Assembly (NCBI GenBank): GCA_947179485.1
Contig: OX359245.1
Span: 5,189,001 to 5,253,000 of the forward strand
Length of the DNA stretch: 64,000 bases
DNA from: Allacma fusca
Lineage: Eukaryota > Arthropoda > Collembola > Symphypleona > Sminthuridae
Direction of reading: 5' to 3'
The position numbers and the translations under genes were made by a program. The notes beneath the pieces were generated by a model, which did not search any database, was not told the DNA's origin, and saw only the letters and a program-made list of their open reading frames with translations. Shown here in pieces: positions 270 through 50,475 of the stretch (its first letter is position 1; the number at the start of each line of letters is the position of its first letter).

Positions 270-1648
270 CAGAGCTCCGCACGGGTTCGAGTACCTATTT
301 GAGTTTCAAGTACGAGTACAAGTACGGGTCGAGTACGGAGTCACAACAAATTATGTACTCGTGCTCTCGGGTCAAGTAACTCTATGCGTACTTGTATTTG
401 AGTAATTTTGAAACGAGTATCGTAACAAGTACGAGTTCTCAAAAAGTACTCGAAGCAAGATACGAGTACAAGTACAAGTATTGAATTTGAAATTACTTGG
501 TACTCGTACTTGAAATGCAAAAATTACTCGAGTAGTTCCACCTAATCATGCGAAGAAAAGTCATCCCTTAAATCCTGTATCATTGGCTGTTATTTTGATG
601 TGAGCCGAGAGCCGCCTTGTACAACACATCTACATTTGGAATGTTATACTTCAATGAAACTACTGAAAATACAATGAAGGCGTTGTATGGTATATAGAAC
701 TAACCGCAACAGTATTGAAACTTTAGTTCACAATCAGTTTACAAGGGCTGACTTCATTCACTTGTTTCTGAACGGTACCAAAACATGGACTCTACCGACT
801 CGTTTTCCCGAACCGTTGATATATCACGGGATACGGGAAATTTTATTCAAGATAACTTTAAATTTACTCATTTACCTGAGGTCGTTCCAAAAATTAAAGC
901 AATGCCGACTTTTTAGAATATTCAGTGTTTGAAGTACACACAAATAAAAGTAGTACTTATAAAGCTAGTTGATGGCGGGTTGCGAAAATGTACAGCAAAC
1001 ACTGGAAACAAGGTTTAAGAAATTCTCTGCAATAACGTATTAATGGTCATAGTTTAAATATTACGGATAAGAAAGATTTTAATATCAACTTTTTTAATAT
1101 CACACCTGGAAGATCTGAAACTATGTCAGTATCGTCTAGTTGTTGCAAAATTTTCATGGGTAAAACTCAATTAGAGTTAACTATCATCATTAGCTTAAGC
1201 AAAGAATCGACTACATCGGTGATGTTAGACGATGAATTATTTGAAAATTAATCAGCAAAACAAATCCTTTTGCTCGATGAAGATACGCATACTCTATAAA
1301 GGCTAGCAATAAAAGCAAAAACAGCGAATAATTTTATTCTGCTGAATTAATGGCGGCTAACTTATGTAAACTAAAATTTACAAAAGTAATTGAAAAAGTA
1401 ATTGAACCTCTAGTACGGTCCAAGTACGAGTACAAGTACGGGTCGGTCCGGTTTTTAAAAAAATACTTGAAAATTCGGTCCGAGTACGAGTATGCATACA
1501 TTGTATTTTTACCCGCACTCAGAGTACCGATTTTGTACTCGTACTTGAACGAGCAAGTCTGGATCTGACTCTGCTTTTACCCGAAAATTCAAGTACGGTT
1601 CCGCTTCAAGTTCGGCATCAAAAATTACTTGACCCGTGCGGAGGTCTG
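270..1648. mobile_element. hAT-like non-autonomous element, GTACGAGT-word family
   Basis: The ends are inverted repeats: CAGAGCTCCGCACGGGT on the left, and the right end reads CAGACCTCCGCACGGGT on the other strand. They are flanked by the direct 8-bp repeat GTCCCAAG (262-269 and 1649-1656). The two subterminal zones (about 285-545 and 1415-1625) are packed with variants of CAAGTACGAGTACAAGTACGG, while the centre is ordinary AT-rich sequence. A piece at about 757-850 matches the left end of the element at 16144-16603, so an older insertion seems nested here. Small open frames inside show no recognisable domain and I do not call them genes. TIR plus 8-bp target duplication points to the hAT superfamily; no transposase is encoded. 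Confidence 0.8.
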
Positions 1649-1657
1649 GTCCCAAGC

Positions 1658-2470
1658 AAAAACTGTGTTAATTATCTCTTTGTACAAAAATGCATGTACA
1701 TATAGGCCGAGTGCCATAATGCACTTCGCCCATCAGCCCATAAACATTCAAAAGGGGAAAAGATTTGGCTTCCCTACTTTTTAGTAATGTGTTCCCGATT
1801 TTTCAAAATTAGTTCCATACTTGTAGCACAAAACTATGCAGTGGTCAAGAAAGTAATGCAAAAACTTTGCTTTGATATTTTGCTTACAGGGTTGCTGCTT
1901 CTGTTTTATAGGATTCTTTTGAAATAATTTAAATTTAGAAAACGCTTGATTTCTTCATCCGTACATATCATCTGCAAAATTTCCACATTTATTAGGGACC
2001 TGTTTGGTAATTGAAAGTCCTTGCAATTTTACAAATGCAGCAGAGGGTATTTTACTTTTTAAAAGGACACCGCACAATCCTTCCGAGAAAATGCCTTCTG
2101 TTCGATTTTAACAAAAACATTACTGCAGGGTGCGCCTTGATGCGTAGATCATTTTTGATAATTGCCCAAATAAAATCTGACTACGGTATTCGGAGATATC
2201 AACGGTCAAAGTTAGCAAAAATTGAGGGGGGTGCTCATGGGGTACCAAAAAATTCAAACAGTAAAAATCAGCAATATGACTTCAAAAAAGGCAAGAATTA
2301 AAATTAAATAACGCGGGAAAAAAATTCAGCGAGATATGACCTCAAAATTCCAAGATGCTGACCTCAAGAGGTCAAAGAGCGTCGATACCGATTTCATAAT
2401 TTAAACGGTGATGAAACTGGCCCAGATTAGAACTAGGGCTTTGACTAGACACATATTAAACGTGTACCGA
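1658..2470. other. Intergenic stretch, nothing recognised
   Basis: AT-rich sequence between an element and a tandem duplication. The one longer open frame (2011-2301) has no recognisable domain and no splice or promoter context. Confidence 0.4.
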
Positions 2471-2766
2471 GTTTGGTTCCAGTTTGTGACACGATGACTC
2501 AGCTGTGACCCCCGAGGTCAATATCTTACCCATACCGGATTTGGTACCCAAAAATCATTCGAATTACCCGCAAATAGGCTAGAACTTTTCGTTTAAGCCC
2601 AGATGAGTTGCCTGTCAAGTTTGGTTCCAGTTGGTGACACGATGACCCAGCTGTGACCTCCGAGGTCAATATCTTACCCATACCGGATTTGGTACCTAAA
2701 AACCATTCGAATTACCCGCAAATAGACTAGAACTTTTCATTTAAGACCAGATCAGTTGCTTGTTAC
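2471..2766. repeat. Tandem duplication, 148-bp unit x2
   Basis: Two adjacent copies begin at 2471 and 2619 with GTTTGGTTCCAGTT and stay collinear through CGAGGTCAATATCTTACCC and CATTCGAATTACCCGC. They differ by scattered substitutions. No coding function seen. Confidence 0.85.
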
Positions 2767-3783: not shown

Positions 3784-3904
3784 GAAAGCTCTAAGCAAGG
3801 GCTTTCCATTTATATATGTGCCTAATCAGTCTGATCCCACTCCGGCAGGAGAAAAGGTTCCATTGTTAGAGCCGAAGTTCCTGGACGTCTCATATAAATT
3901 CAAG

Positions 3905-7498: not shown

Positions 7499-7920
7499 GG
7501 GAGCGTTCACAAATGACGTCATCCAAAATACTGGATTTTAGGCACCCAGTCACACACTTGTCATCAGACGTCATCATGTGATGAAACGACGCACCCACCC
7601 CATGTAATGACGTCATCATCACCAGGGTTGCACAATTGAAAATGCACTGGGTTTTATGCCTGCCTACCTAAAAATGCCCTGAAAATGTCTTAATTTGAAA
7701 ATGCCTGGCATTTTGGGCATTTTCGGCAAGTAAGCAAGTCGAAGCAGGTTGAATCAAACTACCAAAACTGTTAACGGTTAAGCAAAAAAATCGTTGGTAA
7801 CATTCGTCGGTTGATGACATCATCATTCGGTCAAATCCACCCTACCACTGCGTCATCAACATCACCATCTCCCGTTAGCACCCACCCACTAATTTGATGA
7901 CGTCATTTGTGAACGCTCCC
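7499..7920. mobile_element. MITE with 25-bp perfect TIRs carrying TGACGTCA
   Basis: The left end 7499-7523 and right end 7896-7920 are perfect inverted copies, starting GGGAGCGTTCACAAATGACG. The flanking direct repeat is at most TAT. The TGACGTCA palindrome occurs in each TIR and again inside. Around 7623-7735 there is a second pattern, a CAGGGTTGCAC start followed by a repeated AAAATGCC / GGCATTTT word, perhaps a truncated word element nested here. No transposase, so the superfamily is unassigned. Confidence 0.85.
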
Positions 7921-8238: not shown

Positions 8239-8509
8239 CAGTAAAACCTGTATATAGTGGTTTTCCTAGGGACGCCAAAATTTGTCCACTATAGACAGGG
8301 ACCACTATATAAGTATATAGTGGTCAGGGGTCACTATATAAATACATACACATATACGTATACCAGCACGAACCAACCAAAGTTTTACTTTTACACGGTA
8401 TTGAAAATCAGTTATTCTACTTTTTTTAAATAATCACTAATTTTACTATTAATAACAAATTACTTAGATACAATGGACATAATAAATAAGCATTTGATTT
8501 AGTACAGAT

Positions 8510-9424
8510 CAAAGGTGTCCAAATGACTCAGCCTACCCTATATCCTTCCTATATTTAATATTGGGACCGAGCCTACATATATGCCTACATTTAAACTGCC
8601 GAATAGATCAGCCTATCCTATATCCTTCCTATATGGGGAATACCAGGCCTACATAAAAGCCTACATTTTATTGAAAAATAAGCTCAATGTATTTTACACT
8701 CTTCCTACATGTTATATACTTTTCGTTAGCGACAGGTTACTTGAGGGCATTCTGTGGTTTTCTAATTAAAACCCCTGCCTCAAGTCAACGGGATTGGAAT
8801 AAAATAGTTTGAGTTTATCTACCTTGGACAAAGTTTCTAAGATCAAAACCGTTTGTCGATCTCGGCTTGGTTTGTGCTGGAAAACGTGCCGAAGTTTTAT
8901 AACTCTGTTGAAAAGGGATGCTGCACTTGAGATTTCACAAATTAAATACCACAAGAAACATTTTCCAATGTGAGCAAAACAACTCAATTGCGACAACGGA
9001 AAGGTATTAGCTGACTGACAACATATCTCGTAGGAAATCCTGTTTGAAATTCGAATTTTGTTCAAACGTAAATATTCACAACTTTTCTACTTTATCGAAT
9101 ATTTCGAACTTAATTTCGGTGAGGTTTCAGCGAATATCAAGGCGAAATGGAACAAAATTTTCACTCTTGGTACATACCAGAAAATATTATTCTTTAATTT
9201 TTATATTACCCGTTCCATATGCCATTAATTGAAAATTATGTGCTTCAGTAGCTTATACATATATGCATGTAATTTCACGACGGCTGACCCTACCTATTTT
9301 GTAGGCTAGGGTTCAAGTGTATATTTTTGCACCCTATTTTGCCTATAAGCATATTCAGTAAAATCCTTGCACCCTATAAATAGCCTACAAATAGGCCTAT
9401 ATGTAGGATAGGCGGACACCTTTG
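8510..9424. mobile_element. hAT-like element, CAAAGGTGTCC family (copy 1)
   Basis: TIR CAAAGGTGTCC at the left and GGACACCTTTG at the right, with an exact 8-bp duplication GTACAGAT on both sides (8502-8509, 9425-9432). Subterminal zones repeat GCCTACCCTATATCC and related GCCTACA words. Internal frames at 8766-9065 (-) and 8581-8769 (+) have no recognisable domain. A second copy is at 12467-13430. Confidence 0.88.
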
Positions 9425-9581
9425 GTACAGATACATACAATAAAAAACCTCTGAAAATAAAAACGTAGTCCAAATGCCTGTAATTGAGTTAAATTCAAGC
9501 AGCCGTGTTATTGGTTCGGGTTCGCGCGAGTTGTAATCCTTCGTTCTGACTGGGTGACCACTATATACAGGTACTTCAAGC

Positions 9582-10010
9582 TAATGTTAGGGAAATCCCG
9601 AGTAGCTCACAGGACGGACTGACAAAAACATCAGTCCGGACGGATTGGGAGTGGGATTGGGATTGACTATTTGAATGTACAGAGGGATTGAGACGGAGTG
9701 GGATTGACGCAAATATGTAGAAAACTGAGTGGGATTGATGATCAGAAATTATACCACATTAACTTAATTAATTTAGTTAATTTAATTTAATTAAATTATA
9801 TAGAGGCGCTTTTTAAAATTGGCGCGGTATGTACGTATGCGCGCGCAGCGCGTGAGATTGAGTGGGATTGACTATCAGGAGTGTGTGTGTGCATCAGAGG
9901 GATTGGGAGTTTTCTCTATGGTACATAGAGTGATTGGGACGGAGTGTGAAATGAGGTATCGAGATTGGATAGGGATTGGGATTGTAAGAAGAGGGATTTC
10001 CCTAACATTA
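9582..10010. mobile_element. hAT-like element, GGGATTGGGA-word family
   Basis: Perfect 18-bp TIR TAATGTTAGGGAAATCCC at both ends. The direct repeat CTTCAAGC (9574-9581 and 10011-10018) is an 8-bp duplication; one shift of the boundary would allow 10 bp. The interior is dominated by GGGATTGGGAGTGGGATTG. It lies inside the Tigger-like element. The frame 9819-10043 is a by-product of the word repeats. Confidence 0.88.
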
Positions 10011-10540
10011 CTTCAAGCTGCATTTTTAACTGAAGGGGTATGATTATTAGTCCACTATGAGCAGGTTTCCACTATATAGAAAACCACTATATAAAGGGAG
10101 TTTCCTATGTTAAAGGATAGGAGGTGGGACCGGGATGTAAAATGTATCCACTATAAGCAGGAATCCACTATATGAACGGCCACTATATACAGGTTTTACT
10201 GCACTATACTCAAGTAAAAAAAACTTGTGTGATGGCTTTGGCTATGACAGCATGGCATTGCCTCTGTCAAATTGATTACTGCATTTACCTAGACTAGAGA
10301 CCAGTATAGCTTGTGGGTTGCTTACTAATAATTGCTTTTAAATGACAAAATAAAACAATGCTTCACAATGAATTTATTAACTAGGTAATAACGAGGCTTG
10401 TAAAAAACCGGAAACTTATTGGTTCTAAGGAAACAATAACCATTTAAATAAAACAATCTATAAAATACTACCTACTACAAACCATAGTAACGTATACATA
10501 TATTAAGTAATTTCAGACTCAGAAGTCAAAAGCAACCCAG

Positions 10541-14882: not shown

Positions 14883-15289
14883 TAGGGATGCCAATGGTCT
14901 GGTCCGGACCATTTATAATGGTCCGATATTGGTCTGGTCCAGTCTGATCCAACACTTGGACCAGACCAGATACAATTGGTCCAGCCTCAGGACCAGACCA
15001 GACCAGACCACAAGGACCATGGTCCAGAAATTACGCAAAATACAAAATTATGAGTCAACGAAATCCCATGGAACAAATTAAAAATGTCATTTCTGATGAA
15101 AAAACAAGAATTTCACTCGATAAAATGTGATTGTTTAATTGCACTCTATGGCTTTCTGGACCATGGTCCGGACCATGGTCTTTGGTCTGGTCTGGTCCGA
15201 AAAACTGGACCAGACCACTGGTCTGGTCTGAGCTTCGGACCAGACCAGTTTCATAAAATCTGGATCAGACCAGACCATTGGCATCACTA
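14883..15289. mobile_element. hAT-like element, GGTCTGGTCC-word family
   Basis: TIR TAGGGATGCCAATGGTCTGG on the left and TAGTGATGCCAATGGTCTGG read from the right. The 8-bp duplication CCTGAAAT is exact (14875-14882, 15290-15297). Almost the whole subterminal sequence is variants of GGTCTGGTCCGGACC, a partly self-complementary word. A fragment of the same family is at 20228-20356. Confidence 0.9.
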
Positions 15290-31800: not shown

Positions 31801-34800
31801 CAATTGTGGCAGGGGCACAATGCAATCATGATGCCGTGACATCCTTTATGTTTCATGGTTTGGAAATGACGTCCACGGATGGTAAATGCAGATCGTTCGA
31901 TGCAGGGGCTGATGGATTTGTCCGGGCAGAAGCCGTAGTTGCAATTTACATTTGTAAGATGCATGAAGCAAAAAGGGCTTACGCCACTTTGATACATGCG
32001 GCCATTAATAATGATGGCTACAAAGAGGAAGGCATATCTTTTCCATCCAGAGTGCAACAGGAAAATGTCATACGTCAAGTCTATGATGAAACGGGAATAG
32101 ATCCTCTTGAGGTGGATTATGTTGAAGCACATGGCACAGGAACCCTTGTTGGCGATCCACAAGAAATGCATGCCATTATGAAAGTGTTTTGTGCAGGGAG
32201 GAGTCAGCCACTGCTTGTTGGCTCCGTGAAAAGCAATATGGGACATTCGGAACCAGTTTCGGGTTTGTTTACATTTTTATAACGTGTCAAAATTTTCACC
32301 CCTTGAGAAACATGTTGAAACTTTTGTTTCACATACATGCCGTCATTTCCGATTCCTTATGTTTCACACGTTCTCACAGCTAAATTCTCTGCGAGAAAAT
32401 ACACGGTTGAAGATGAATGTTTTATAAATGCCTTTGTATTTGATAATTAACTCTTCAAAACCATAAGAAAAGTTTAAACAAATATTTTGAGTTTGCTATC
32501 TGTAAACGATCAGCGGTCGCACTAAATAGCTGACGAGAAATAATGTAGCAATAATTCTTCAGCTAGCATTATAGTTTTGATTTTGAACTAATGAATTTGG
32601 CTTTTAGGATTATGTGGACTATCGAAAATGGTACTTTCCCACACCAAGGGAATTTTACCGGCCAACTTGCATTACAACACCCCGAATCCAGATATACCGG
32701 CTTTAGTAGACAGAAGAATACGAGTCGTGGACAAGAACCAACAATTTAAAGCCAAATACGTCGGTCTCAATTCAATGGGATTTGGGGGAACAAACGTCCA
32801 TATACTACTCAAATTCAACAACCACGAGACTGCACCACCATGGGTACCGTCCATTCCCGTAATCTTACTTTGCTCAGGAAGGTCCAACCAGGCCGTCACA
32901 CATTTTCTAGATCAAGCACTGCTTGACAGCAAAAATCAACATTTTGTGAAGCTACTGCACGAATTATCGAAGGAAGCTATGCCCAGACACCCGTTTCGTG
33001 GCTACGTTGTTATTCATTCCGAGAGCATGGGTATAAATGTTCATAACACGGATCCAAAAGAATCTGTCTGGTTTATATTTACTGGAATGGGAAGTCAATG
33101 GGTGGGGATGTTTACCAACCTGATTAAATTTGACGCATTTAACAAGTCCGTCGACTTGTCTCATAATTATCTTGAAAACATTAACTATAATCTCAGACAT
33201 GTTTTGAAAAGCGCCGAGCCAACAATTTTGGATGCCTTCAAAAATGCTATGGTGACCATTAACGTATTCCAAGTGGCTTTGGTGGATCTACTGAATTCGA
33301 TTGGCATTAAACCTGACGGAATAATTGGGCACTCAACTGGAGAAGTTACAGCTGGATATGCTGATGGATGCTTGTCTCACGAGCAGACGGTCTTGATTTC
33401 ACATGCAAGAGCGCGGTCATTCTTGGAGTCTAATGTGCCTCCGGGAACTGTTGCCGCAGTAGGTTTAACATGGGAGGATGCCCATAAGCGTTGTCCAGAA
33501 GGTATCTACCCAGCAATACACAACGGTAAAGACAATGTAACGATTGCTGGGTCGCCGGAACTTGTCAATCGCTTTGTAAGGGAGCTGCAAAGTCAAGGAA
33601 TATTTGCAAAACTAATTCGCTCAGCTCTTCATGGATATCATTCACCTTTAGTTTACAATTCAAAGCCATTGGCACATAAGCTACTCCAGAAAATCATTCC
33701 AACTCGAACCTTGAGGTCGAAAAAGTGGTTAAGTTCGTCCGTTCAAGAACATCTCTGGAATGAAGATTTCGTCAAATACAGTTCGGTTGAGTATTACGTT
33801 AACAATGGATTGAACACTGTATACTTTTACCCAACGCTTTTACATGTACCTGCAAACTCTATTGCATTGGAGATAGCCCCGCACTGTTTTATGTTATCAA
33901 TTTTGAAACAGTCGCTCCCTAAATCCTGTGTCACATTAGGACTAGTTCACGTAAAAAGTTCAGATAATTGCGTATACTTTCTCAACTCAATAGGCCAGTG
34001 TCACCTTCATGGATTACAGGTTAATGTCGGCGAGCTATATGAACCAGTACCATTTCCAGTTAGCTCCCGTACACCATGTATAAGCCCTTTGATACGATGG
34101 GATTACAGTGACAACTGGTACGTACCACATAACTCGGAGGTAAGTTACAGATTCTCTGCAATAAATCACACCAGCATAGTCCATACTTACAGCATATTCC
34201 ATTCCCCATGATTATGATCTATCTAAAATTTGGTACATTGAATATGTTTAACCGTTTTTTACTTCGGGTTGTGGAGGGGATTGTTAGCACATTGTGCAGA
34301 TATGCACATCTAGTTTCTCTTCTACCCCTTTAAGAGTAAAAGGACACGAACCATGTGCTTCCCCAATAGTGAATTAAATTATTTTCCTGGTGTTTTCAAA
34401 ATGGTTTTTGGACGTTGCTAAACAATTGAGTTCACAATCTCCAAGGAGAAGAAAAGAGAAACGTTTTTGGTATTACAAATGCACACAGCTGTGTGCACAT
34501 GCTCACGCTCATTGGTAGGAAATGTCATTACGTTTCATATAATTTGATTAAATTTTAAAGGGTCGAACATTTTTAAGTTTGCAATTCATATAAGCCTATG
34601 TTTTGTTTCAGACCTAACTCACAATACCTGGATGTTAGACAGTAATTCTTGACTTAGAATGGTAATACCAAACTCAAATGAATCATTTTGAATTTTGTTA
34701 AACGAGCAGCGTTTTGAAATATTTTTATGAAAAACATAGCGTATATGAAATATTAATACTCTAGAAGATACTACGTTTCCGAATCGGTGTTGCTGACGAC

Positions 34801-37800
34801 GTATTGTATATCGCCGTAACCTTGTTGTTTATGCGAACGGGTCACACAGTTAGTTCTCTACCTAAAGACCTGCTCTAAAGCTTCAAAAGGCAATAAAAGT
34901 TTGTAAAAACGAGCGTCGAAAAAAACTGCAGCCAAACTTTAGTTAATGACACTAAATTGTAATACCATAAATGTTAGAAATTTCAAAATTGCATCGTTTG
35001 TTTCAGGATTGTGAGCACACGTTGCCAATTGGACTTTTTGACTTAGGTCAATGAGCCAAATGCTAAATCTGGAAACAAACGTTGATTCAAAATGGCGAAC
35101 CACGTATTTTATGTCCATTTTCCATATATGGGATGGGGCAGGGGTCGGATTTTTGTAGGAAGACGGGAAGATTCTTCCCAGGGAAAAGTATTTCTGGCAG
35201 GGACAATCTCAAAGGAAAGGCATATATTTTTACGAGCAGGGATTTTTAAAACCGTTGACCTTTTTTTTTGACAGGGATTTTCAAATTTTTCGACGGGTTT
35301 TAGGGAAATGTGTTTAGCAAACAGAGATTTCTGGCTTCATTGGCCTAATTTGGCAGTGATTTCACGTCTTGTAAGGGATTTGTTTTGCCAACAGGGATTT
35401 TGAAAATCGTTGACCTTTGTTTCAGCAGGGATTTTTGTAATCGTTGAGGACCTACCAGCAGGGAGATAATAGTCAGCAGGGAAATTCAGAAACGATCTTC
35501 CAGGGAGATTTACAAAATTCCGACCCCTGGGATGGGGTACAAAATAGATATAGGACACCTAAACAAAACATGGCGTATTTTAGCCGTTGGCTTGGTATTT
35601 GCAGGAAGTTAAGTATATAATGAACCAAAATTTGCTTTTTAGGAAATCAATAACAAGAAAGGGACATCGTATATTGTAAATATGAATGATGAAGAAACAT
35701 CGTTTTTTAAAGGACACTCTTTTCAAGGCAAAGTAATTTTTCCGGCAACGGGGTATCTATGGCTTGTTTGGCGATATTTTGCAACCAAACAGACCTGCGA
35801 TTTGAATAAGTGTCCAGTTGTTTTTCAAGATCTGCGTTTTGAGCGAGTTACATTTATAACCTCACTGCATGATACTGAGTTTCTGGTGAACATGCTCCAC
35901 GGAAGTGGAATCTTTGAGGTACTAGAGTCGAATCAGGTGGTTTGCACGGGAGTGGTTCGTTCAGCCGAGGAAATCGTAACAAATGGACATAGTGACGATG
36001 AAGCATGGAAAGACATAGATACGTCTGGACCTGTTTTGTGTAGGCAAGACTTTTATAAGGAAATGCATCTTCGAGGATATGGACATTCGGGACAATTTCA
36101 AGGCATACAACAGGTACACATTGCAGGGAAATGGGCCCAGATCGAATGGCTTGGGCATTGGGCGAGTTTCCTGGACTCAATCCTACAAACATGCGTCCTT
36201 CAAACTCACAGCCGTGAGATGGTTGTTCCCATTCGAATGAAGAAGCTATTCATTGATCCTGTCAAAGTCAGTTCCAGCCTTCAAAGTAACAACAACGTAA
36301 TAACGTTTAAAACTTCAAACGTCAGAGACAATGGAGGTTGTCCAGGATTTGAATTTCAAGGTTTAAGTTTTGCAAGGCTTAATCAAAGGCAAATTGACCC
36401 CGATCCAATGATTTGCGAACAGGAATTTCTGCCATACAACTCTACAGAAATTACTGACGTTCAACGACATGTATGGGAGTCGTTTATTGAAATCGCCAGA
36501 GACAATTCACATGGGGAAACATTTGTATACACCGAAGTTTTGACAAACATTGAAAATACTATTTCCCATATAGTGTCCGAGCAGTGCTTGCTTTCGTTTC
36601 CAACCATAGATTGTACCACTGCCAGCGAATCATATAAAAAAAGTATTGACCACGCAAATGTTACGAAAACAGTATTAAAAGTAACTCCACTAAAAAACCT
36701 TCAGCCGAATCCAAATAATAATCTAGTTTTCATTGATAGCATTACTTATTATTCAATTGCAACAACGTTTGTTAAGCCGGAAGGATTTATATTGTGTGCA
36801 ATAACATCACTTACAGATACGTTCATGCCGGAATTTATTCATATATCAACAAAGATTGTATTGGATCAAGGAATTCAAAAATCCTTTGCTTTGTGTCGGA
36901 AACACACTTCAAATCCAAAACACACCTCTATTATTTCGATGGACAGCAACGATTTTAGTTGGGTAGAGACATCCAAACAGATTTTAAATAGTTCTGCAAA
37001 TTTTCAGCGCTATATTTTCACATCAACGTCCTCCACGTCTGGTATTGTCGGATTTATTAAATGTTTAGTAAAAGAACTGTCTGCGGAAACAATAAGATGT
37101 TTTCAAACAATTGACAACATTATTCTCAACTTTGAAAACCCAACGAAAAGCCTTCAAGCTCAGTTACAGAATGACTTGGTATATAATATATACAAAAATG
37201 GTCAATGGGGGTACTTGGGCTATCAATCCATTAAATTTGAAAAACTGCAAACACAAAACTATCCATGTGCTTATGCTGACGTTTTAAAGATGGGAGAACT
37301 GTCTAGTCTTAGCTGGATCGCCAGTACGCTTTCCGTCTCAAAATCAAATCTCGTTGAAGTGGAATACTCATCCTTGAATTTCAAAGACATCATGTACGCA
37401 ACCAGTCGCTTGAATAAAACTTCAGAAGCAGGGCGTATTCGAAATGAGCGAGCGCTCGGATTTGAATTTTCGGGAACATTTCAAGGGAAACGTGTTTTTG
37501 GCTTGGGCAGCTCCCAATGCTTAGCTACGCATATCAATCCAGATAATTTGTTTTTATTTGATATGCCCGAAAATTGGACTTTTGAAGAAGCAGCAACTAT
37601 CCCGGCAGCATATACTACGGTGTATTTGGCATTAATTGTTCGGGGTAAGATAAAATCTGGGGAATCTATTCTAGTGCATGCAGGATCTGGAGGTGTAGGT
37701 CAAGCAGCCATTTCCGTAGCACTCAGCATGAATTGTAAAGTGTTTACAACCGTAAGCACGAAGCAAAAACGGGACTTTTTGAAAACTCGCTTCCCAAGTT

Positions 37801-40103
37801 TAAAAGACGAAAATTTCACAAATTCCAGAAATGCAAATGAATTTAGAACACATTTGCATACCCGTACGAATGGACGAGGTGTTGACTTGGTTTTAAATTC
37901 CATAGCCCAAGAAAGCCTTAAAGCCTCAATTGACTGCCTTGCTGAAAACGGTCGCTTCCTTGAAATTGGTAAATTTGATATGATGAATGATACCAATATT
38001 GGATTAAGTGTATTGCTAAAAGGCTTAAGTATTATTGGAATCCATGTTGAGAAATTGCTAGATGACATTGCTTCGAAAGAGACGGCGTCACTCAGAAGAT
38101 ACATTAATTCTGGGATAAAATCAGGTGTTGTACTTCCCCTGAATTTCCAAGTATTTCAAAGTAACCAACTTGAACAGGCTTTCAGATTAATAGCTCAAGG
38201 CAAGCATATGGGTAAAGTTTTGATACAGATTAAGGAGAACAACAATATACCTGCTTCTATTGCAGCCTACCCTAGAACTTATTTTCATTCAAACAAATCA
38301 TATGTTATTGTCGGAGGTCTTGGCGGGATGGGGTTTGAATTAGCCAATTGGATGGTGTCTCGCGGGGCAAGAAATTTGATTTTAGTTTCCAGAACAGGGA
38401 CAAAATCAACATACCACGAGTACCGTATTAATATTTGGGAGAAGCAAGGTGTCTCGATATTAATCAGCCTGCATGATTTATCCGCAATTGAAGGAACTCG
38501 CCAACTGTTTAAAGAATCAACAAAACTAGGACCAATTGGTGGTATTTTTAACACAGCAGTTATAGATAAAGATGCTCCGTTTGAAAATCAAACCCCTGCG
38601 ACTTTCATGGACTCTGTAAATTGCAAAGCCATTGCAACATTGAATCTTGACACTATTTCGAGAAACGTGATCTCAGAACTTGATCATTTCGTCGTGTTTT
38701 CTAGCATTACGGCGGGACGGGGATTTTCAGGCCAAACAAATTATGGTTTTTCAAATTCTGTCATGGAGCGCATTTGTGAACAAAGGCATCGCGACGGGTT
38801 ACCAGCTTTAGCGGTTCAATGGGGTGCAGTAGGGGATGTCGGAATTTTGTATAGAAAAATCGGGGATAAAGTTAATTTTAAAGGATTGACACCACAAAGA
38901 CTAAAATCCTGCTTTGATACACTGGACCTTTTCCTTCAACAGAAGCGACCTATAGTCACGTCTTTTGTGGCCTTTAAACAATGTGATTCGGAAGAAAATA
39001 GCGTCAATGACTCTTTGGTAGAGAGAGTAGCACGCGTAATGGGAATCAATGATGCGTCAAAGATTAATCCTAAGAGTACATTGCTGGATTTAGGAATGGA
39101 TTCCATTATGGCAGCTGAGATCTCGCAGATTTTATCAACTTGTGAAAACGTTCAAATCTCAGCTAAATCCCATGGCCAAATTACTTTCGAAATATTGGCT
39201 CAACTTGACAAAGGCGAAGGAAAAGTTCAGCAAACAAATCCTGAATATACTATAGGACAGACTTCAAAACTGTTGAAATTGCAGAAAACAACAACTCCAG
39301 TTTTTAAAATGAAATCTTCAGCCAATAGCAGCCTGAATGTATTTATTGTTCATCCGATGGATGGCACGATGCAAACATTGGAAACATTGATTGGACATTT
39401 GAATGTAAATGTTTACGGCACGGCGTGCGTAAAGGAAACCCCTTTGACTTCAATAGAATCAATAGCAGCGTTCTACGTGGAAAAGATCCAAGCAATCCAA
39501 AATCAAGGGCCATACATACTAGGGGGGTATTCGTTTGGTTGTTGCGTTGCATTTGAGATGACTCTTCAGCTTGAACGTCAAGGCAATACCGTCCCGTTGT
39601 TGCTACTCCTTGACGGGTCGCCCTTGTGGAACGTGATCAATGAGAGTTTTGGTGGTGGTGATGATAAACTCCTCGAATGGGAAAACACAGTTTTGTTTGG
39701 CTTCTTGCAGCAGTTTTCGCGTGATGCTGACTTGCTTGTATTTAAGCACCTGTCAAAAATATCAACTATTGAAGGAAAGTGGAAGTTCATGGCCGATGTT
39801 TTAAAAGGAGAAACCCCAGATATGAGTCATGAAGAAATAACCTCCTTTATGATGTCCTATATGGCCCGAATGGAATGCTTCAAAAATTATGAAGTACTCG
39901 GAAAAGTACAGTCAAAAACAGTACTGCTTAAGGCAAGTAAGTCTGGTTTGTCCAAAGCAGTTACGTTTGATTACGGACTCAATGGAATTTGTGAGGCACC
40001 CGTCACAATTGTTGAAGTCGAAGGAGATCATTATTGCTTTTACGAGAAGCCTTTGGAGCTTGGAATTCCGAAAATAATTAATACTTTTTTGGAGAAAGTG
40101 TAA
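25805..40103 (+). CDS. FASN: Animal type I fatty acid synthase, complete, five exons
   Basis: Exons 25805-25928, 31277-31411, 31492-32262, 32608-34139 and 35643-40103 join in frame (7023 nt, about 2340 residues, near the usual 2400-2500). It makes palmitate from acetyl- and malonyl-CoA with NADPH in the cytosol. KS: Cys168 in HTACSSGF, His300 in VEAHGTGT, His338 in NMGHSEP. AT: Ser586 in GHSTGEV. DH: His879 in GHSFQGKVIFP (HxxxGxxxxP) with a later LDSILQ. The non-catalytic core follows. ER: HAGSGGVGQAA. KR: GGLGGMG and Tyr1888 in GQTNYGFSN. ACP: Ser2008 in GMDSIMAAE. TE: Ser2151 in GGYSFG and His2317 in EGDHYCF. Introns lie only in the first third; the last exon is 4.5 kb. Intron 1 (5.3 kb) and intron 4 hold transposons. 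A polyadenylation signal is at 40340-40345. A longer N terminus from 25712 is possible but the promoter argues against it. Confidence 0.93.
26421..28900 (-). pseudogene. L1/Tx1-like non-LTR retrotransposon fragment in FASN intron 1
   Basis: Antisense to FASN. Its 5' part (about 28850-28628) ends in a CCHC zinc knuckle (CFLCKTTTHVSRDC) of an ORF1 protein, followed by a stop. The frame 28547-28095 continues ORF1-like sequence and overlaps the next start as ATGA. ORF2 starts at 28098 with an AP-endonuclease (NNIQGL, PDIMCLQET), breaks at 27754, shows ISDHAIYEI at 27541-27194, and then reverse transcriptase 27053-26421 (DLRNWRPITVCNSDYKIL, GQYQTCNIRGRTIFD, LLSLDQEAAFDNIN). The LSLDQEKAFD-type motif is typical of the L1/Tx1 branch. 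It stops just after RT motif A, so the 3' half (active YxDD, tail) is missing, an uncommon direction of truncation. Confidence 0.8.
29300..30095. mobile_element. hAT-like element, AATTCAGTTC-word family, in FASN intron 1
   Basis: TIR TAGTGGTCGGACCAATTC on the left and TAGTGGTCGGAACAATTC on the complement at the right. The 8-bp duplication CTGTCAAG is exact (29292-29299, 30096-30103). Subterminal zones (about 29315-29470 and 29945-30080) repeat CAATTCAGTTCAATTC. The middle is unrelated AT-rich DNA with no transposase. Confidence 0.92.
30573..30597. repeat. Lone end related to the 7499-7920 MITE
   Basis: GATGACGTCATTTGTTGCGC followed by ATCCC closely matches the right TIR of the MITE at 7499-7920 (GATGACGTCATTTGTGAACG then CTCCC). 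No matching left end was found. A separate 14-bp palindrome ATATGACGTCATAT is at 30482-30495. Confidence 0.5.
35139..35529. mobile_element. hAT-like element, CAGGGATTTT-word family, in FASN intron 4
   Basis: TIR CAGGGGTCGGATTTTTG on the left and CAGGGGTCGGAATTTTG on the complement at the right. Exact 8-bp duplication GGATGGGG (35131-35138, 35530-35537). The interior repeats CAGGGATTTT followed by AATCGTTGA. A second, older copy lies at 42527-42880. Confidence 0.92.
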
Positions 40104-42199: not shown

Positions 42200-43320
42200 T
42201 TAATGTCCACTTGCCTTGCAATATATGGGAAACAGTAAATGACGCAGCAGTGGTTTAGTCTTTCCTGTCCAATTACGGACATTAGATATGTTTGTATTCG
42301 CCGTAAAGTGGAAAATGATCTCAGCCGTCCCGGAGCTGATTGGGAGCACGATTAGAATTTTTAAAAAGTTCTTAACTATGGAGAACTGACGAACTTCTGG
42401 GACACAGACCTTAAACCATGACAAAAATCCTGCTATATATATTCTCACTAATCCTTCAATCCCATGAATCATAGTCAATTGAAGAATAAGTCTCTCAGAA
42501 TTGAACTGATACAAATCTGAATCTACTTGGTGCTCCCTGGGTTTTGGTCCCCCCTAGAAGATCATTTCTGAATTTCCCTGCTGAATATTATGACCCTGCA
42601 GGGAGGTCCTCAACGATTTCAAAAATCCCTGTTGGCAAAATAATTTCCCTACAAGACATCAAATCCATGCCAAATTAGGTCAACCAATCTAAAAATCCGC
42701 TTAAATAGCAAATTTTCCTGAAACAAGCAAAAAAATTTGAGAATACCTACCAAAAAATGATAAACGAATTTAAAAATCCCTGATCGGGAAAAAAAATCCC
42801 TTCCCTTTGATATTTCCCTGCCAGAAATATTTTTTTCCTGGGGAGAACATTCCCGACTTCCCAGAAAAATCCGACCCCTGCAGTTAAGCAATATTTTCTC
42901 TAACTCCTGAACTTTCGTGATCCCGGGCTGATCAAAACGACCCTTGAATTCCGCAACAACAAGTTCAATCGAATTGTTAAATATGTTTTGGTTCTTTACT
43001 TCTGCAGGTGTAAAGACAGGTGGATTATTTATTCAATACCGCTTTGGTGTTTTGCGGGATCGATCTGGAGAAGAACGTGCTAAATGAAAACGGTCACAGG
43101 CTTCCTCCATGCGATTCCAAAGCTCGTTGAAGACGTTCTGACCTTTCTGCTTTCTAACATTGTCAATGCACACATTCGAAGCTTGAACAGTGCCACTACT
43201 GACGGTAGAACGCTGTGTTTGTGTGATTTTGCTCAAAATCTCGGTTGGATTCAAAATGTTGTGTAGAAGGAGCAAACCAAAATAAGTCTTCCTTTTTTGA
43301 GCTGTGTATATAACCCACAC
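42200..43320 (-). pseudogene. hAT-family transposase remnant
   Basis: On the - strand, about 43320-43080 encodes NVFNELWNRMEEACDRFHLA then RSRKTPKRY. A continuing frame at about 43020-42900 gives VKNQNIFNNSIELVVAEFKG, which fits the region before the C terminus of 52-kDa-repressor-like hAT proteins. After an interruption, 42514-42200 reads FLKILIVLPISSGTAEIIF then RNWTGKTKPLLRHLL, the hAT C-terminal dimerisation region (family pattern LPVSTATAERSFS...R..L...RL..L). In-frame stops and a TIR element inserted between the two parts show that it is dead. N-terminal zinc finger and catalytic Asp residues are not seen. Confidence 0.6.
42527..42880. mobile_element. CAGGGATTTT-word hAT-like element, older copy
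   Basis: The right end reads CAGGGGTCGGATTTTTCTGG on the complement, matching the FASN intron 4 element. The left part AGAAGATCATTTCTGAATTT aligns to that element's other end, but the terminal bases are degraded and no target duplication is clear. It lies between two parts of a hAT transposase remnant, as if inserted into it. Confidence 0.7.
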
Positions 43321-43351: not shown

Positions 43352-44160
43352 GGGTTTGTTTTTTTCAAAGCGGACAGCGACGAAAGTCACTTTTTTAAAC
43401 AATATTTTCGTATAAGTACTTCAATGCAGAGCGATGTGAAAAAAATTGTACACAAAATTTTTTTTTGTAAAACGAGTTTGAAGGTCAAAAAACCGAAAAA
43501 ACCCGAAAACTAAAGTAATTTTTTACATCCATAATTTAATATTCAAAGACAAACTGCCTATCTTAAATTTTTTGTCGCAAAGGAAGGTCAACTCACGATT
43601 TTTTTCAGGATCAAGGCATTAATATTTCGGTTTTTTCAGAAAAATTACAATGTAAATTTGTTCACATTCAAGATTTTTTTTCACTACGGGCCCACTCTAA
43701 TGTGATCATTTTTAGAAGCTTAAACGACGAGACTGCATTGGTACCACAATTTAAAATTTAAAAATGTGTCACATTAGAGTGGGCCCGTCTTCAAAATCGA
43801 GAAAAACCGAAACGGGTAATTCATATACATATACACATAAGGGGCCATGCAAGTGTATTTATACGTACACACGCAGGATTGTCTTGTGGAGGTGAGAGGC
43901 GCGCTATCGTGCAGCGTAATGAGTACGTAGCCCTTACATGTACACAAACAACCGCATGGCGCAGCTCCGCGTTCGGTCTTCCGTCACACCAAATAGTCCC
44001 ACTTATTTCTTATTATATGTTTTACATGATTGGTCCTACACCAATCAAAATTGGTGTGAGGGTTGACCACGACTTTCGAAATATATGTATGTACATTACA
44101 TGTACTTTACATTAAAAAAATGTTCAACCTTGCACTGTCCGCTTTGAAAAAAACAAACCC
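43352..44160. mobile_element. TIR element with 26-bp perfect ends and TTCG duplication
   Basis: Perfect inverted ends starting GGGTTTGTTTTTTTCAAAGC (43352-43377 and 44135-44160), flanked by TTCG on both sides (43348-43351, 44161-44164). A 4-bp duplication excludes hAT; the superfamily is unassigned. No transposase frame. It contains the hairpin element at 43687-43787. Confidence 0.85.
43687..43787. repeat. 101-bp hairpin with 19-bp perfect arms
   Basis: CGGGCCCACTCTAATGTGA at 43687-43705 and its exact complement at 43769-43787. It lies in the middle of the 43352-44160 element, either as a nested tiny MITE or as a structural part of the host element. Confidence 0.85.
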
Positions 44161-44219: not shown

Positions 44220-44757
44220 TAGGGGTGAGTTTCTCGTTGGTTTTAAAATTCTCGTTTGTCTCGTTTACGTTTCTGTAAAAAATACGAGAACGAGATACTT
44301 CGACAACGAGAGTAGCGAGAGTAAGCAATGAACGAGACAAACGAGATAGGGCAAAACATGGGTTTTTTGTTGAAATATATGCAACTTAATTGTAGCCTGC
44401 ACAAATTCTGGTAAGAGAACGTAGAAGTTTATATAATTTTCACTTATCAAACCAATCTCAAGACGCAAAATATACATTTTTGGGTTTGGACAATAAAATT
44501 TGAAAACATGAAATCATTGAAAAAAGTAAATGAAGGCCTCCTGTACTGATAGCTAGAATCAAGAGTTGCAAAACGTCTCAATTGGCCAAATGGTATAGCA
44601 AAACACCTCATTTACCCACTGATATTGGCTTAAACATGATTTAATTGCAAACGATATTCTCGGTAAATAAAACGAGATGTCTCGTACTGTCTCGTTGATG
44701 CAAAAAGAACGAGACAAACGAGATTCTCGTCTCGTTGTCTCGTCATGCTCACCCCTA
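44220..44757. mobile_element. hAT-like element, CTCGTTTGTCTCG-word family
   Basis: TIR TAGGGGTGAG at both ends and an exact 8-bp duplication GTGGTGAT (44212-44219, 44758-44765). Both subterminal zones repeat CTCGTTTGTCTCGTT / AACGAGACAAACGAG. The middle is AT-rich filler. - strand frames here lack domains. Confidence 0.92.
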
Positions 44758-45487: not shown

Positions 45488-48400
45488 TAGTGCACCTCAT
45501 GGGCACTAAAACGTGGTACCTGTACCTGTACCTGTATCCAAAAATGGGTACTTCAGAATGTTGTACCTTTACCTGTACCTTCTTTGAAGTACCTAATACT
45601 TGAATAAAGGTACCTGTACCCAAACTTTTTTTAAACTTTTACCTGTTCCTGAAAATTACCTGTACCCAAAAAGTACCCGAATTTTTACCTTTACCCAGGT
45701 ACTTTGTTTTACCTACCCGGGTACTTTTTATGATGATGTGAATTCAGTTAAAAAATTATTTTAATAATGTGCTCCAATTTATTCCCCTATAATCTATTAC
45801 ATCATGTTTTGCAAAAAATTGAATACAGCTAAAATAGAAAAACTACTTCAGCATTCAGCCATCAATCTTGCAATCGCGGTCATTTTAGTACTTCCGAACT
45901 CTGCACATTCGATCTTCATCCATGCTTTTAGACAGAAGCATTTTCTAATGGTATCTCTTATGGAATTGTCAGTTGGTGGAATGCTAGAACACGTTTATAA
46001 GGAATCTCATGCCTGCAGTGGAAGACTGTTGAATGGAGTGGCACGAGAATGTCATGGAGACAACCACTTTATGGTCATTCACATTCACAAATGGTCACCA
46101 GGAGGTTAAGTGGGATATTTTTTTTCCAGCTTAGCTCAATGGTATTAAAATATTTCCCATAATTTTTGGAAAACGGGAAAATTCAAAGTGGTAGTTTGAT
46201 AATTTATGAGGTCAGGGCACTGCTAAATTAAACTAAAATCCTGATTCAGGATTCCTGACTAATACAGAATGAAAGTATCTGTTGGAAAAAACATTGACTA
46301 ACTTGCCATCTACCTTGGATTGGAACAAAAGTCAAGTCTTCCAGTAAACGCATTTGATCGAATACCAATTGTTTGGTTAAATGTGTAAAAACTTCCAAAA
46401 ATTATTACTAAAACTATCTAAAAAAAACTGAAAGTATTTTCGGATATTTTTGCTAACTACCTTACTCTTGAGATACATATTTGGGAGTCCCGAAAGAAAT
46501 TAGAATTTACTAAAAACGTTTCTAACTTTTAACGTCAACTATTAATAAAACTTTAAATCCTGACATTTATTTACATAATAAAAAAATCGAGATAGCTCCA
46601 GGATTCCATTTGTGGAGACGTTTCGCATAATTTTCGGAATTTTGGGAAACTATGAAATTCCAAGTGGTTGTTTGAACATTCACAACGTCAGGGGGATGTG
46701 CAAGCCAAATGCGAAGCGTAAATAGCAACTTCAAAATTTCGAAAAATTTCGAAAAATATTTGATAGTTGGAAATTTTGAAGATGGTTTTCACATCTTCAT
46801 GTTCGGAGTAATGTACAAAAGAAATTTCAAGATTAAATTATGTTTTCAAAATTTTTTCGAAATTTCAAAAATTTTTGAAAAATGAAAAAATTTGAAGTGG
46901 TTTGCACATCTACATGGTCAGGAGGTTGTGTTGGGCAAATTGTTTTTCAGCTATGCTTAATGGTACAGACATACTTGCAGTCGTTCAGTTCATAAAGTGG
47001 TGAACTGAACTGAACTAGCCCTTATTCTTATTGTTTTTGAATGAACTTGAACGAACTAGCTAAATGCAAACTTTTGATTGAATGAACTTGAATTGAACTC
47101 AGAAAAACTTATTTGGAACGTGAACGAACGTGCATCATACGTTCAAGTAACAAAAACTGAACTGAATTGAACTTAGGAGTCAGGGTTTGAATATTAGCTT
47201 GTACAAACGTGAACACAAAACGAATATTATATATCTCTAAAGTGCATGACCATAAATTGTATTGTTGTAATCTTAAAAGTAGCACCCTGGTTTTTGATTA
47301 TCCATGTCAATGACATTAAATTACAAATCAAGCAAATTGAGTACAAGCAAACCGATTTTTACATACTATAACGAGTTGCATGTATTAAAAAGATCAATAA
47401 TTGTATGCATAGTTATATGATTTATTAATTTGGAAGCGCTTGGTTTTTCTATCCTGATTGTTTATCAGAAAGCTCAAAGTAAATACTGCTTTCCAAACAC
47501 CGGAGTTTTGAAAGCAGTTATTTAACCAGTCAATTAGCGAAAAATCTTGATTCAGCCAAAGTTCAAAGTCAGTTATAAAAATATAACTAAATGCCACTAA
47601 AATATATCATAAGTGACACTCTAATGCCAGATAAAGTGAACTGAACTGAACGACCGAAAAGTATATAATGAATTGAATTGAACTTTGAAAAAATACTGTA
47701 AGGATGAACTGAACTGAACGTAACGACTGGAAAGTACGCAGTGAATTGAACTGAACTACGACGGGATTTGGACAAGGGGAACTGAACTTAACTGAACGGC
47801 ACGAAAAATTTTGGGATGTGAATGGAACTGAATTTGAACTTTGGACCAAAACTGCAAGTATGGGTACAGAAACCTTCGTGTCCACAAGGTCAAAATCGAG
47901 ATCGCTCCAGGAATCCATTTGTGGAGAAGTTTCCCATAATTTTCGGAATTTTGGGAAACCATGAAATTCCAAGTGTTTGTTTGATCATTCATGAGGTCAG
48001 GAGAACGTGTAAGCCAAATTTGAGGCTTGAATATCGATTTTGAATGTTTTCAAAATTTTTCAAAATATTTCGAAATTTCGAAAATTGAAAAAATTCTAAG
48101 TGGTTTGCACATCTAAATGGTTAGGGGTTTGTGTTGGGCAAGTTTGTTTTCATCTGAGCTTAATGGTATAGAAGCCTTTGTGTCCACAAGGTCAGAACCG
48201 AGATGAATCCATTATATCGCTTCGCTCATAAAAAGTACCTTGTATGAATCAGGTATTTTCTGAACGGGTACAGGTAATTACTTTTGAAGCTGTACCTGTT
48301 CCTGTCAGGTAAAAACCGTTTCATGTTTTCTTTGTACCTGTACCTTTACCCGTAAATGTGCCCAATATTTAGGTAAAATTGGCTTGTACCCAGAATTTAC

Positions 48401-48491
48401 CCATTCTGTTTGGGTATAAAAAATATTACCCAGTATTTACCTGTACCTGTACCCAAATATCCGGGTAGTACCTGTATCCATGAGGGCACTA
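45488..48491. mobile_element. hAT-like element, GTACCTGTACC-word family, 3 kb
   Basis: Ends TAGTGCACCTCATGG (left) and TAGTGCCCTCATGG (right, complement). Exact 8-bp duplication ACAGGGAC (45480-45487, 48492-48499). Subterminal zones (about 45510-45740 and 48230-48480) repeat GGTACCTGTACCTG. The centre holds internal direct repeats: a block of about 107 bp at 46586-46692 recurs at 47895-48001, with a third decayed version near 46120-46210. The + frame 45804-46109 has no recognisable domain. A second element is nested at 46970-47862. Confidence 0.88.
46970..47862. mobile_element. hAT-like element, TGAACTGAAC-word family, nested
   Basis: TIR CATACTTGCAGT at both ends and an exact 8-bp duplication GGTACAGA (46962-46969, 47863-47870). 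Both ends are packed with GAACTGAACTGAACG / TTCAGTTCA words. Because the host element carries internal repeats, an unoccupied copy of the same site survives at about 48160-48195 (CTTAATGGTATAGAAGCCTT), directly confirming the insertion point. Frames at 47394-47992 are word artefacts. Confidence 0.93.
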
Positions 48492-49229
48492 ACAGGGACA
48501 ATTACTTGGAGGAGGAGGTAGTGTGACTGTAGAAATTAAAAGCGGCTTACGAATCAAGCCCTGTCGTAGAGACTTGTTGTATGACTAAATCATGCGCGCT
48601 TATATTAAGAGTAGCGCTTTACAGGTATTGATCGTTAATAGTGTAATAGAGTTCTTGGCATGCCAACATTCGGGCGTTGTGTGACGCCATTGAATTATAA
48701 AAGTGGAAAACTTTAAATAAACTGACAGAAAGTGCCCTTTAATAATAAGGATTGCAAGTTTAAGAGATACGTAGCAACTGCAGCCATCACATGGTATATT
48801 TTCTCACCGAAAACCCAAACAACCTTCAATTATTACAGCGTAGTACGATTTTCCAACGTTCTATTAAGCACGCTGATATTTTTAGGGGCGAAGCACGGCC
48901 CGAGTCCCTATTGCGAAGTTATGGATGTCTGGCTGTCTGTGGAGGTTGTCTTGCCCGCACAATATCTGCCGAACCTATGCTACTACACACTTCAAATTTT
49001 TTATAGGGACAGATCACGCGAAAAGTAAAAACCCTATTGTATTTGAAGGACATCCTGCCAAGCGTTTGACCTCAGAAAATTAAATAAGGTCACGTATGAA
49101 AACAAACCACGACATACCGCAAATCTGTCGTTAATTTTTTCCTTTTGCATGAATTGCCATCTTTGGCTAGCAGATATAACTGAGTACGCGCGGATTTTAA
49201 ATACACGTTTACTTGTACACATATTACTG
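48492..49229. other. Possible body of the second Helitron-like element
   Basis: It continues the Helitron-like 3' end described at 45460-45487. No helicase sequence is readable. The frame 48732-49028 has no domain. The upstream limit is not identified. Confidence 0.3.
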
Positions 49230-50475
49230 CATAGATGGGCGTTTTTCTCCCCCTCTGCCTCTTTGTGCGAGGGATGGAATACAGCCTGCTCGCACTCTCC
49301 CTCGTCATTAATCGAGCGACACGTTACGGGTTGTCCTCGTCCTCGCCCTCGTGAGGGGCTACTTTTAAAATACACCCCTCTCCCTCCCACTCATGAGGGC
49401 CCTCGTTATTTTATATTACACGTAAATAACCCCCCCAACAATTTCCTACAATACCTGTGCCTTCAAATAACTTTTTCGCGGACACTTGGTTAAAATATGA
49501 CAACTTCAATATGTGTCAACATTCCCCCCAGTTCTGAACATACGGAACTTTGGGATGGCTTAGAAAGTTTATAAAATTTCCTACAACCTAGCGTTCAAAA
49601 CAAATTTTAAAAAAATTGTTGTTGAAATAAACTACTGTATTCAAAATAGTGCCCTTTATTGGTGCAGGTTTTACACAAGTATTTGGGTACAGGTACATAT
49701 TAGGTTTCGTGGTTGACATAATTGTAAAAAGTATAAAAAACTTGAAAAATTTACGTTTTTTCGATTTTGTCCTGAACATAACGTAAAAAACAATTTTAAG
49801 ATTCTAATCCACCGGTAAAAAGTTCCTATCTTCCGTATATTTTAATTGTCGGCAAAATGTGAAACATTCAGTAGTCAAACTACAATATTGTCTTATAAAA
49901 GACATTTTTGTTGGTCTTTGATAATAATTCTTCATTATAATCGATTCAGTAGCTCAGAAAATGACTTATTGATCAAAGCTGTTTTCTACGTCTCAGGTTA
50001 ATAAAGATTAGTCACAAATAGGTTCCATAACCTCAGACCACTAATATTCTATAGTAGGGCCTGAAAACAGCAATAATCAAACATAAAACCCAGGTGCCCT
50101 TGTTGACAAACGACCATGTCTCCCCGACATCTTAAAATGAAATTTTGTTCTGGAGTTTAATATGAGAAATGTTCACCTAAACAAGAGGATCTTTTACTTA
50201 TCCATGTACCTAAGACGTTATGAAGGTGGTCTTGCTAAAGAACAATATATGTATGATTTTCGCATAAGATTAAGGTAAGAGAAGGTCATGAGGGTTTATA
50301 TGTGTACTCTGCCTCCCCCTCTTTCGTTCACATCCTATTCATAGGTCCTCTCCCTCATGTTCATGAGAGCACCTAAAATCAACGTGTACTCGCCATCACC
50401 CTCGCGGTTTGTGAGGGCGAGGACGAGGGAGAGGGCGAGGCATCTCTCAATCCCTTGTGAGGGTGCCCATTTATG
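49230..50475. mobile_element. hAT-like element, CCTCGTCCTCGC-word family
   Basis: Ends CATAGATGGGC (left) and CATAAATGGGC (right, complement). Flanks TATTACTG (49222-49229) and TATTAGTG (50476-50483) differ at one base. Subterminal zones at about 49245-49420 and 50310-50465 are unusually C/T-rich or G/A-rich with repeats of CCCTCGTCCTCGCCCTCGTG. The centre is AT-rich filler. Confidence 0.8.

Follow-up and report, generated by a model that had tools for sequence, protein, structure and literature searches.

Non-coding hAT elements of the springtail Allacma fusca with dense terminal words that follow the transposase lineage in several families

Introduction

A stretch of 64,000 bp of the springtail Allacma fusca (positions 5,189,001-5,253,000 of contig C1, accession OX359245.1; hereafter the window) contains eleven elements, designated A to K, which are genuine non-coding hAT-type DNA transposons. 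Each ends in a short terminal inverted repeat (TIR), is flanked by an 8-bp target-site duplication (TSD) and carries near both ends many copies of a short sequence, here called the word. For several families the word follows the lineage of the transposase, and the words are preferentially conserved. The elements are most probably hATs resembling miniature inverted-repeat transposable elements (MITEs), each mobilised by a transposase of its own lineage, the words being predicted subterminal recognition sites. A preliminary description of the same DNA was sound in its observation, and its interpretation pointed mostly in the right direction; the principle is a known one, met here in an unusually rich form.

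Elements and Their Copies in the Genome

A blind scan of the window for a perfect 8-bp TSD together with a 12-bp TIR having no more than two mismatches, at an element length of 150-5500 bp, gave 11 matches, eight of which were the elements A, B, C, E, F, G, I and K at exactly the coordinates of the preliminary description. The remaining three were low-complexity pairs of AT type near 46.8/48.06 kb; TTTCGAAA-type repeats surround element I within H at 46745-48076 and give rise to chance TSD/TIR calls. In 20 first-order Markov versions of the window the mean number of matches was 0.9 (range 0-3). When one mismatch in the TSD was allowed, 28 matches were obtained; they include D and J, and the majority look like chance. 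In element H, read directly, the TSD ACAGGGAC is perfect and the TIR contains a one-base indel; a coding relative of H has the same TIR. Including H, the TSD is perfect in 9/11 elements and has one mismatch in the other two (D and J), and the TIR begins with CA or TA in all 11. The TIRs of hAT elements typically begin in this way. The proposal that the window holds elements defined by a TIR and an 8-bp target duplication was thus borne out for all 11.

The genome searched comprised 392,743,791 bp in 91 contigs. The word pair of A gave 363 matches (reversed control 0), the end of C 839+786 = 1625 (reversed control 1+0) and the TIR of B 146+166 = 312 (reversed control 10+7 = 17). Twelve loci of C were examined, and eight had both ends; seven of these eight, the window copy included, had a perfect TSD, and in the eighth the duplication was one base out of register. 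Among eight loci of A the window copy appears twice and two others have a perfect TSD, while the remainder comprise one locus with both ends but without a TSD and three with one end. For B, 13 pairs of plus and minus ends, the window copy included, were found among the 33 places listed on contig C1, with a length of 416-431 bp in 12 pairs and 807 bp in one. The elements are short and non-coding, share their boundaries and occur in many copies, as expected of MITEs, the copy counts and the boundaries covering A, B and C. It had been anticipated that genomic copies would share boundaries and have 8-bp duplications of their own, and this held for the families examined (boundaries in A, B and C; TSDs in A and C).

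Words at the Ends of the Elements

Of the terminal 200 bp, 6-mers with four or more occurrences account for 38-60% in every one of the 11 elements. The means for shuffled sequences were 2-23%, and the observed value was reached by none of 300 shuffles per element, the shuffle maximum being close to the observed cover for D, E and F. The same measure for the interiors was 0-10% in A, K, I and J and 46% in H, where I is nested. In a blind scan of the window for 7-mer self-repeats, eight elements stood out by peaks at their ends, namely A, B, C, E, F, H and I as well as K on its left side; no peak was listed for D, G and J or for the right side of K. Additional peaks, in several cases tandem arrays, were located beyond the elements. 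A repeated short motif within about 200 bp of both ends was thus present in 11/11 elements by 6-mer cover and in 8/11 by the blind scan. C, E and I have a strongest repeat lag of 5 bp, and A, D and H one of 6 bp; the remaining elements have other lags, except G, which has none.

The matrix of words against elements was near diagonal, so the words are mostly family-specific. The exceptions were E and I, whose words are common to both, and H, whose word matches A too; the G word had only four occurrences in the ends of G itself. A core word runs in the same direction along the element at both ends in seven elements (A, B, D, F, H, I and K). Judged by the commonest 6-mer, the direction is direct in five (B, D, F, H and I) and clearly mirrored in E; G and K tend towards mirroring, C shows a mixture, and a tie occurs at one end of A and of J. 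Among the eight coding elements described below, five (H, K, J, A and I) are direct, E2 is mirrored, and C and E1 are of mixed direction. In 66 word patches on the 3' side of hAT genes, the majority strand carried 443 copies of the top word (random-strand expectation 352 ± 7) and the opposite strand 110, a count in which related patches and tandem copies are taken singly and hence are not independent.

The preliminary description had the ends built almost wholly from one word, mirrored at the two ends and different in each family. Dense word arrays are indeed present in all 11 elements, but the extent was overstated, the cover being about half. Mirroring did not hold up, the words being mostly direct and E the clearly mirrored case. 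The difference between families stands in the near-diagonal matrix, but not for the near-twin words of E and I or for the H word occurring in A.

Transposase Loci and Coding Partners

Out of 860 genome candidates, 150 scored matches to the hAT dimerisation domain were used as hAT loci, and 90 downstream flanks of 1.4 kb each were taken from them, namely the 30 top-scoring ones and 60 from the 120 other scored matches, mostly by dropping duplicates of equal score. A word-dense patch was found in 71/90 of these 3' flanks versus 19/45 stretches of the window (p=3.6e-5), the control being the whole element-rich window with nothing excluded and runs of N not counted. An earlier control from which the elements had been excluded gave 2/46 stretches, overlapping by half, and the upstream coding sides gave 5/30. 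When each transposase cluster (90% identity) was represented by a single flank, 46/61 had a word patch; a patch lay less than 700 bp from the domain match in 36/61 and at 700-1400 bp in 19/61, and the value for 700-bp stretches of the window was 22/91. Some patches derive from MITE insertions close to the gene (F in L062 and L092, where these additional copies bear a TSD, and in L134; K in L118 and L129; J in L121), and therefore 71/90 is an upper figure for the hATs' own ends.

The words of 66 flanks fell into 27 clusters, a number that includes the cases of nearby MITEs and one large single-linkage cluster joining different words. This diversity bears on the possibility that the binding partner of the words is a host factor, architectural or involved in silencing or replication, and not a transposase. 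The available part of one report favours such a factor, in that Hermes needs in cells a further, as yet unnamed feature inside its ends (PMC10368747). Binding by such a factor would be expected to select a single word throughout, yet there are 27 clusters and they differ between transposase lineages, which makes this explanation very unlikely.

Coding elements, all located via the match to the hAT dimerisation domain, were traced in eight of nine attempts; the TSD was perfect in seven of the eight, and all bear words at both ends. Pfam confirmed the dimerisation domain in those of I, H, K and J, in E1 and in the C-like element. The TIR and word of the window element recur together in a coding hAT for H, I and E, and coding hATs with a related TIR and an identical or related word were found for A, J and K; the C word is shared with a coding hAT whose TIR differs. 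In the case of I, four hAT loci end in CATACTTGCAGTTTTGA adjoining TGAACTGAAC words. The traced partner (L068+L073) is 4452 bp long with TSD GTTTGAAC and encodes, according to Pfam, a zf-BED domain (E 2.7e-7) together with Dimer_Tnp_hAT; a zf-BED match lies upstream at 4/4 loci of the I lineage. The partner of H (L135+L120), of 3938 bp with TSD CCAATGAC, has the TIR TAGTGCCCCTCATGG, identical at its two ends and with two mismatches over 17 bp to that of the window H, and carries CAGGTAC words. For E, the partner E1 (L136+L101) of 4331 bp, with TSD ATTCGGCC and CAATTC words, has a TIR that matches that of the window E over 17 bp without error on the right side and with one mismatch on the left; a second, more distant partner, E2 (L074+L057), is 4201 bp long with a TSD matching at 7/8 positions.

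The relatives of the other families show a perfect TSD throughout. The A-like coding element has the TIR TATAGCTCCT, a length of 3852 bp and the TSD ATACAAAC; the J-like element (L056+L138) has the TIR CATAGATGCAC, 3766 bp and the TSD ATCATCGT; the C-like element (L140+L100), of 3900 bp, contains the C word and the different TIR TAGGARTGGGACTG. In the K-like element (L137+L119), of 3993 bp with right end CAAAGGTGGGCAAAG and TSD CATTTTAC, the two TIRs differ from each other at 5/16 positions. Candidates for D and G were also considered. The start of the TIR and the right end of D agree with L108, whose left end was not found, and the pairing of D with L094/L114 was rejected, the word being similar and the TIR different. 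L112 was not accepted as a proven partner of G; the terminal 35 bp or so are nearly the same and the inner word differs.

Conservation and Turnover of the Words

When the MITEs were aligned with their coding partners, word positions were 78-89% identical and other positions 54-71%. An alignment may favour repeated words, and for this reason the ends of the partners were mutated at random and aligned in the same manner for H, E and I; the observed difference was reached in 0/200 neutral simulations for each of the three. In J, A, C and K the identity of the words was likewise above that outside them, as judged from the alignment alone.

These data can be set against the explanation that the words are neutral growth of microsatellites or minisatellites which merely happens to be located in transposon ends. 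Tandem arrays with a period of at least 8 overlap 26/66 word patches, such as that of 29 bp x 7.3 downstream of the hAT match at L049, which is built of the word itself, and that of 32 bp x 20.6 downstream of the match at L065, and 10/27 word clusters have their strongest lag at 4-6 bp; all this is what growth of that kind would leave. However, 40/66 patches are without such an array, the words occur at both ends and are scarce in the interiors of A, K, I and J (H, with I nested, being the exception noted above), they track both TIR and transposase lineage, and their conservation over that of the spacers goes beyond the neutral simulation. Neutral growth is accordingly considered highly improbable.

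The word profiles of the 66 flanks become dissimilar as the transposases diverge. The median cosine was 0.95 at a protein identity of at least 95% (78% of 32 pairs above 0.2), and the mean was 0.13 at 60-80% (79 pairs) and 0.01-0.03 below 60% (1-5% of 2025 pairs above 0.2). It follows that the words turn over much faster than the dimerisation domain. The lineage of E, represented by the traced L101 and the flanks L103, L106 and L096, has kept the TIR TAGTGGTCGG (TAGTACTCGG in L096) and a collinear layout of word slots, and the commonest word is AATTC in L101, GATTC in L103 and AGTTC in L096; L106 has a mixture of words, GATTC being the most frequent. Between L101 and L106 the leading A has become G at 14/23 positions, against 19/103 elsewhere (p=1e-4). 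Concerted change of this type was significant in two of five comparisons within the lineage, both of which involve L106 and are not independent.

A shift of the word letters in the same way at many homologous slots would also be produced by concerted homogenisation, through slippage or gene conversion among neighbouring words, with no selection for binding and with common descent accounting for the match to the lineage. Homogenisation would likewise raise the conservation of the words, and the neutral simulation covers random mutation without it. On the other hand, the word slots in the E ends are interrupted by spacers and stand in both orientations, yet the TTC core is retained at 81-92%, and neither L103 nor L096 showed a significant concerted shift. 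Taken together, homogenisation on its own appears unlikely, and recognition of the words by transposases of the respective lineage is preferred.

The density of the words was compared at the two ends of MITE and partner. Word cover was 0.42/0.41 in the MITE versus 0.48/0.53 in the partner for I, 0.52/0.60 versus 0.67/0.71 for H, 0.28/0.32 versus 0.41/0.40 for J, 0.52/0.47 versus 0.58/0.56 for C, 0.55/0.41 versus 0.52/0.51 for K, 0.52/0.45 versus 0.48/0.36 for E and 0.62/0.51 versus 0.56/0.48 for A. The MITE was therefore less dense at both ends in four of seven pairs (H, I, J and C), denser in two (E and A) and mixed in K, and a high word density does not seem to be an invention of the MITEs. 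The suggestion that a word had been amplified until it filled the ends finds agreement in the tandem arrays of the hAT flanks but not in those four pairs.

Proposed Mechanism

The simplest account would be one of the Ac/Hermes type, in which an N-terminal finger binds many subterminal sites and a multimer assembles on the ends. The BED finger at the N-terminus of each transposase would read the word, many sites together would capture the multimeric enzyme, and an element would remain mobile for as long as an enzyme encoded elsewhere fits its TIR and words. Because the words are mostly unidirectional while the TIRs are inverted, the direction of the words may distinguish the left end from the right.

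Several results weigh against this account. According to the available part of the report on Hermes, mutants of the inner repeats of the left end retained about 70% activity (PMC10368747), and dense arrays therefore need not be strictly required. It had been proposed that each word would match a distinct autonomous hAT; this was realised for H, I and E and, through related elements, for A, C, J and K, but no coding partner of B or F was found among the 90 hAT flanks. Of the eight coding elements, that of I alone gave a significant Pfam match to zf-BED, and a genome-wide search for zf-BED (35 matches, with 150/327 candidates scored) gave none in the other seven. Some transposases less than 45% identical share a word, for example L052/L105. 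Finally, E and I have near-identical words and unrelated TIRs, so that of the idea of a one-to-one family code the following of transposase lineages is kept and the strict correspondence is not. As to the finger itself, partial or split C..C / H..H motifs, perhaps interrupted by introns, are present in six coding elements (H, K, J, E1, E2 and C), and no such motif was located in the A-like one.

A wider reading can be offered tentatively as one possibility. A single animal genome might contain a radiation of perhaps at least 20 pairs of transposase and word, the word serving as an address of two parts, with letters specifying the enzyme and direction the left or right end. Letters shifting in concert across the slots, the TIR being fixed, might then provide a fast origin of mutually incompatible lines of parasites, and BED-finger recognition might be decodable from sequence alone.

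Description of the Elements and Their Surroundings

Except for the second copy of F, the elements are given without a strand. Element A (270-1648), a non-coding hAT element, has the TIR CAGAGCTCCGCACGGGT, the TSD GTCCCAAG and the word CAAGTACGAGT. An end of the D family sits within copies of A at window positions 768-850 and at the loci L037, L039 and L040, and for this reason D was apparently carried as a passenger during the spread of A. Element D itself (16144-16603) is characterised by the TIR TAGTGTTYCT, the duplication CTTTAGAG/CTTTAGTG and the word TTCCCGAACCGG, and the neighbouring C (14883-15289) by the TIR TAGGGATGCCAATGG, the TSD CCTGAAAT and the word GGTCTGGTCC.

Elements K (8510-9424; TIR CAAAGGTGTCC, TSD GTACAGAT, word CCTACCCTATAT) and B (9582-10010; TIR TAATGTTAGGGAAATCCC, TSD CTTCAAGC, word GGGATTGGGA) are inserted inside an older element at 8239-10202, which has a perfect 22-bp TIR, CAGTAAAACCTGTATATAGTGG, flanks of TA/CA and many CCACTATATA words at both ends. 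The style of its TIR is reminiscent of Tigger/pogo. Judging by this element, word-rich ends may not necessarily be confined to hATs. A further element, with the TIR GGGAGCGTTCACAAATGACGTCA and ACGTCAT repeats, is located at 7499-7920 and encloses a fragment rich in AAAATGC.

Element E (29300-30095) contains the TIR TAGTGGTCGGA, the TSD CTGTCAAG and the mirrored words AATTCAATTC/AATTCAGTTC. Element F (35139-35529; TIR CAGGGGTCGGA, TSD GGATGGGG, word CAGGGATTTT) lies between long open frames at 31440-34211 and an open frame at 35643-40100 with domains of a fatty-acid/polyketide synthase (KR, thioesterase and carrier protein), which may belong to the same gene. A second copy of F, absent from the preliminary description, is truncated and inverted; it occupies 42550-42880 on the minus strand, its left limit being approximate and its right end, AAAAATCCGACCCCTG, read directly. 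The TIR of F was also sought in IMG/VR, where it was present in 34 stretches, none with more than two copies of the word core per approximately 800 bp, and these were taken as chance.

Element G (44220-44757) has the TIR TAGGGGTGAG, the TSD GTGGTGAT and the word CTCGTTTGTCTCG. Element H (45488-48491), with the TIR TAGTGC(A)CCTCATGG, the TSD given above and the word GTACCTGTACC, contains element I (46970-47862; TIR CATACTTGCAGT, TSD GGTACAGA, word TGAACTGAAC). Element J (49230-50475) has the TIR CATARATGGGC, the duplication TATTACTG/TATTAGTG and the word CCTCGTCCTCGC.

No remnant of a hAT transposase was found in the window by tblastn of 126 open reading frames from 39 sampled hAT loci, a search that covers the sampled lineages only. 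Of its five matches in the window, two fell in the two copies of F and two in the H ends, and the fifth lay at 43841-43966. This fifth match spans 42 codons with 81% identity to a frame of L072 that runs opposite to the transposase of this locus, and represents a repeat of no assigned kind. A decayed hAT gene, supposed at 42.2-43.3 kb from a motif, found no support, the three open frames in that region being without a hAT match in Pfam.

Comparison with Known Systems

In the literature covered, dense and lineage-specific words in the ends of hATs were not found for springtails, most subscription papers lying outside this coverage, so that their absence is unproven. The collection of words and enzymes looks like a natural set of locks and keys. 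One genome would supply transposases already paired with candidate motifs for binding, and this would open to direct testing both the rules by which BED zinc fingers recognise DNA and the way in which new, non-interfering hAT families arise; the sequence alone also suggests which enzyme moves which MITE.

In maize, the terminal 200 bp of Ac contain AAACGG hexamers to which the transposase binds; as described in the available part of the source (PMC3260210), the Ac/Ds system resembles the springtail elements in its 8-bp TSD, short TIR, copies of a hexamer in the terminal 200 bp and non-coding Ds. It differs in that the springtail words and TIRs are others, that about half of each end consists of the word and that many word lineages are present in one genome. 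In Hermes of the house fly, according to what is available of that report (PMC10368747), the subterminal repeats AAG(T/C) are bound by the BED finger and their orientation differs between the two ends; Hermes has 17+14 of these short sites, whereas the springtail words are longer, with units of about 4-6 bp, dense and often in one direction. The hAT-derived CGG-binding proteins offer a parallel to the pairing itself, since in the accessible portion of that study the measured motifs of 4/4 proteins tested match the subterminal regions of their own transposon and the specificities are diverse (PMC8097297). These proteins are mostly host genes studied across species, while the springtail pairing is read from the sequence of one genome. 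Subterminal repeats that bind a transposase are thus already known from Ac and Hermes, and what is new is the saturation of the ends, the number of words per genome, their direction, and a turnover of the word that is faster than that of the enzyme.

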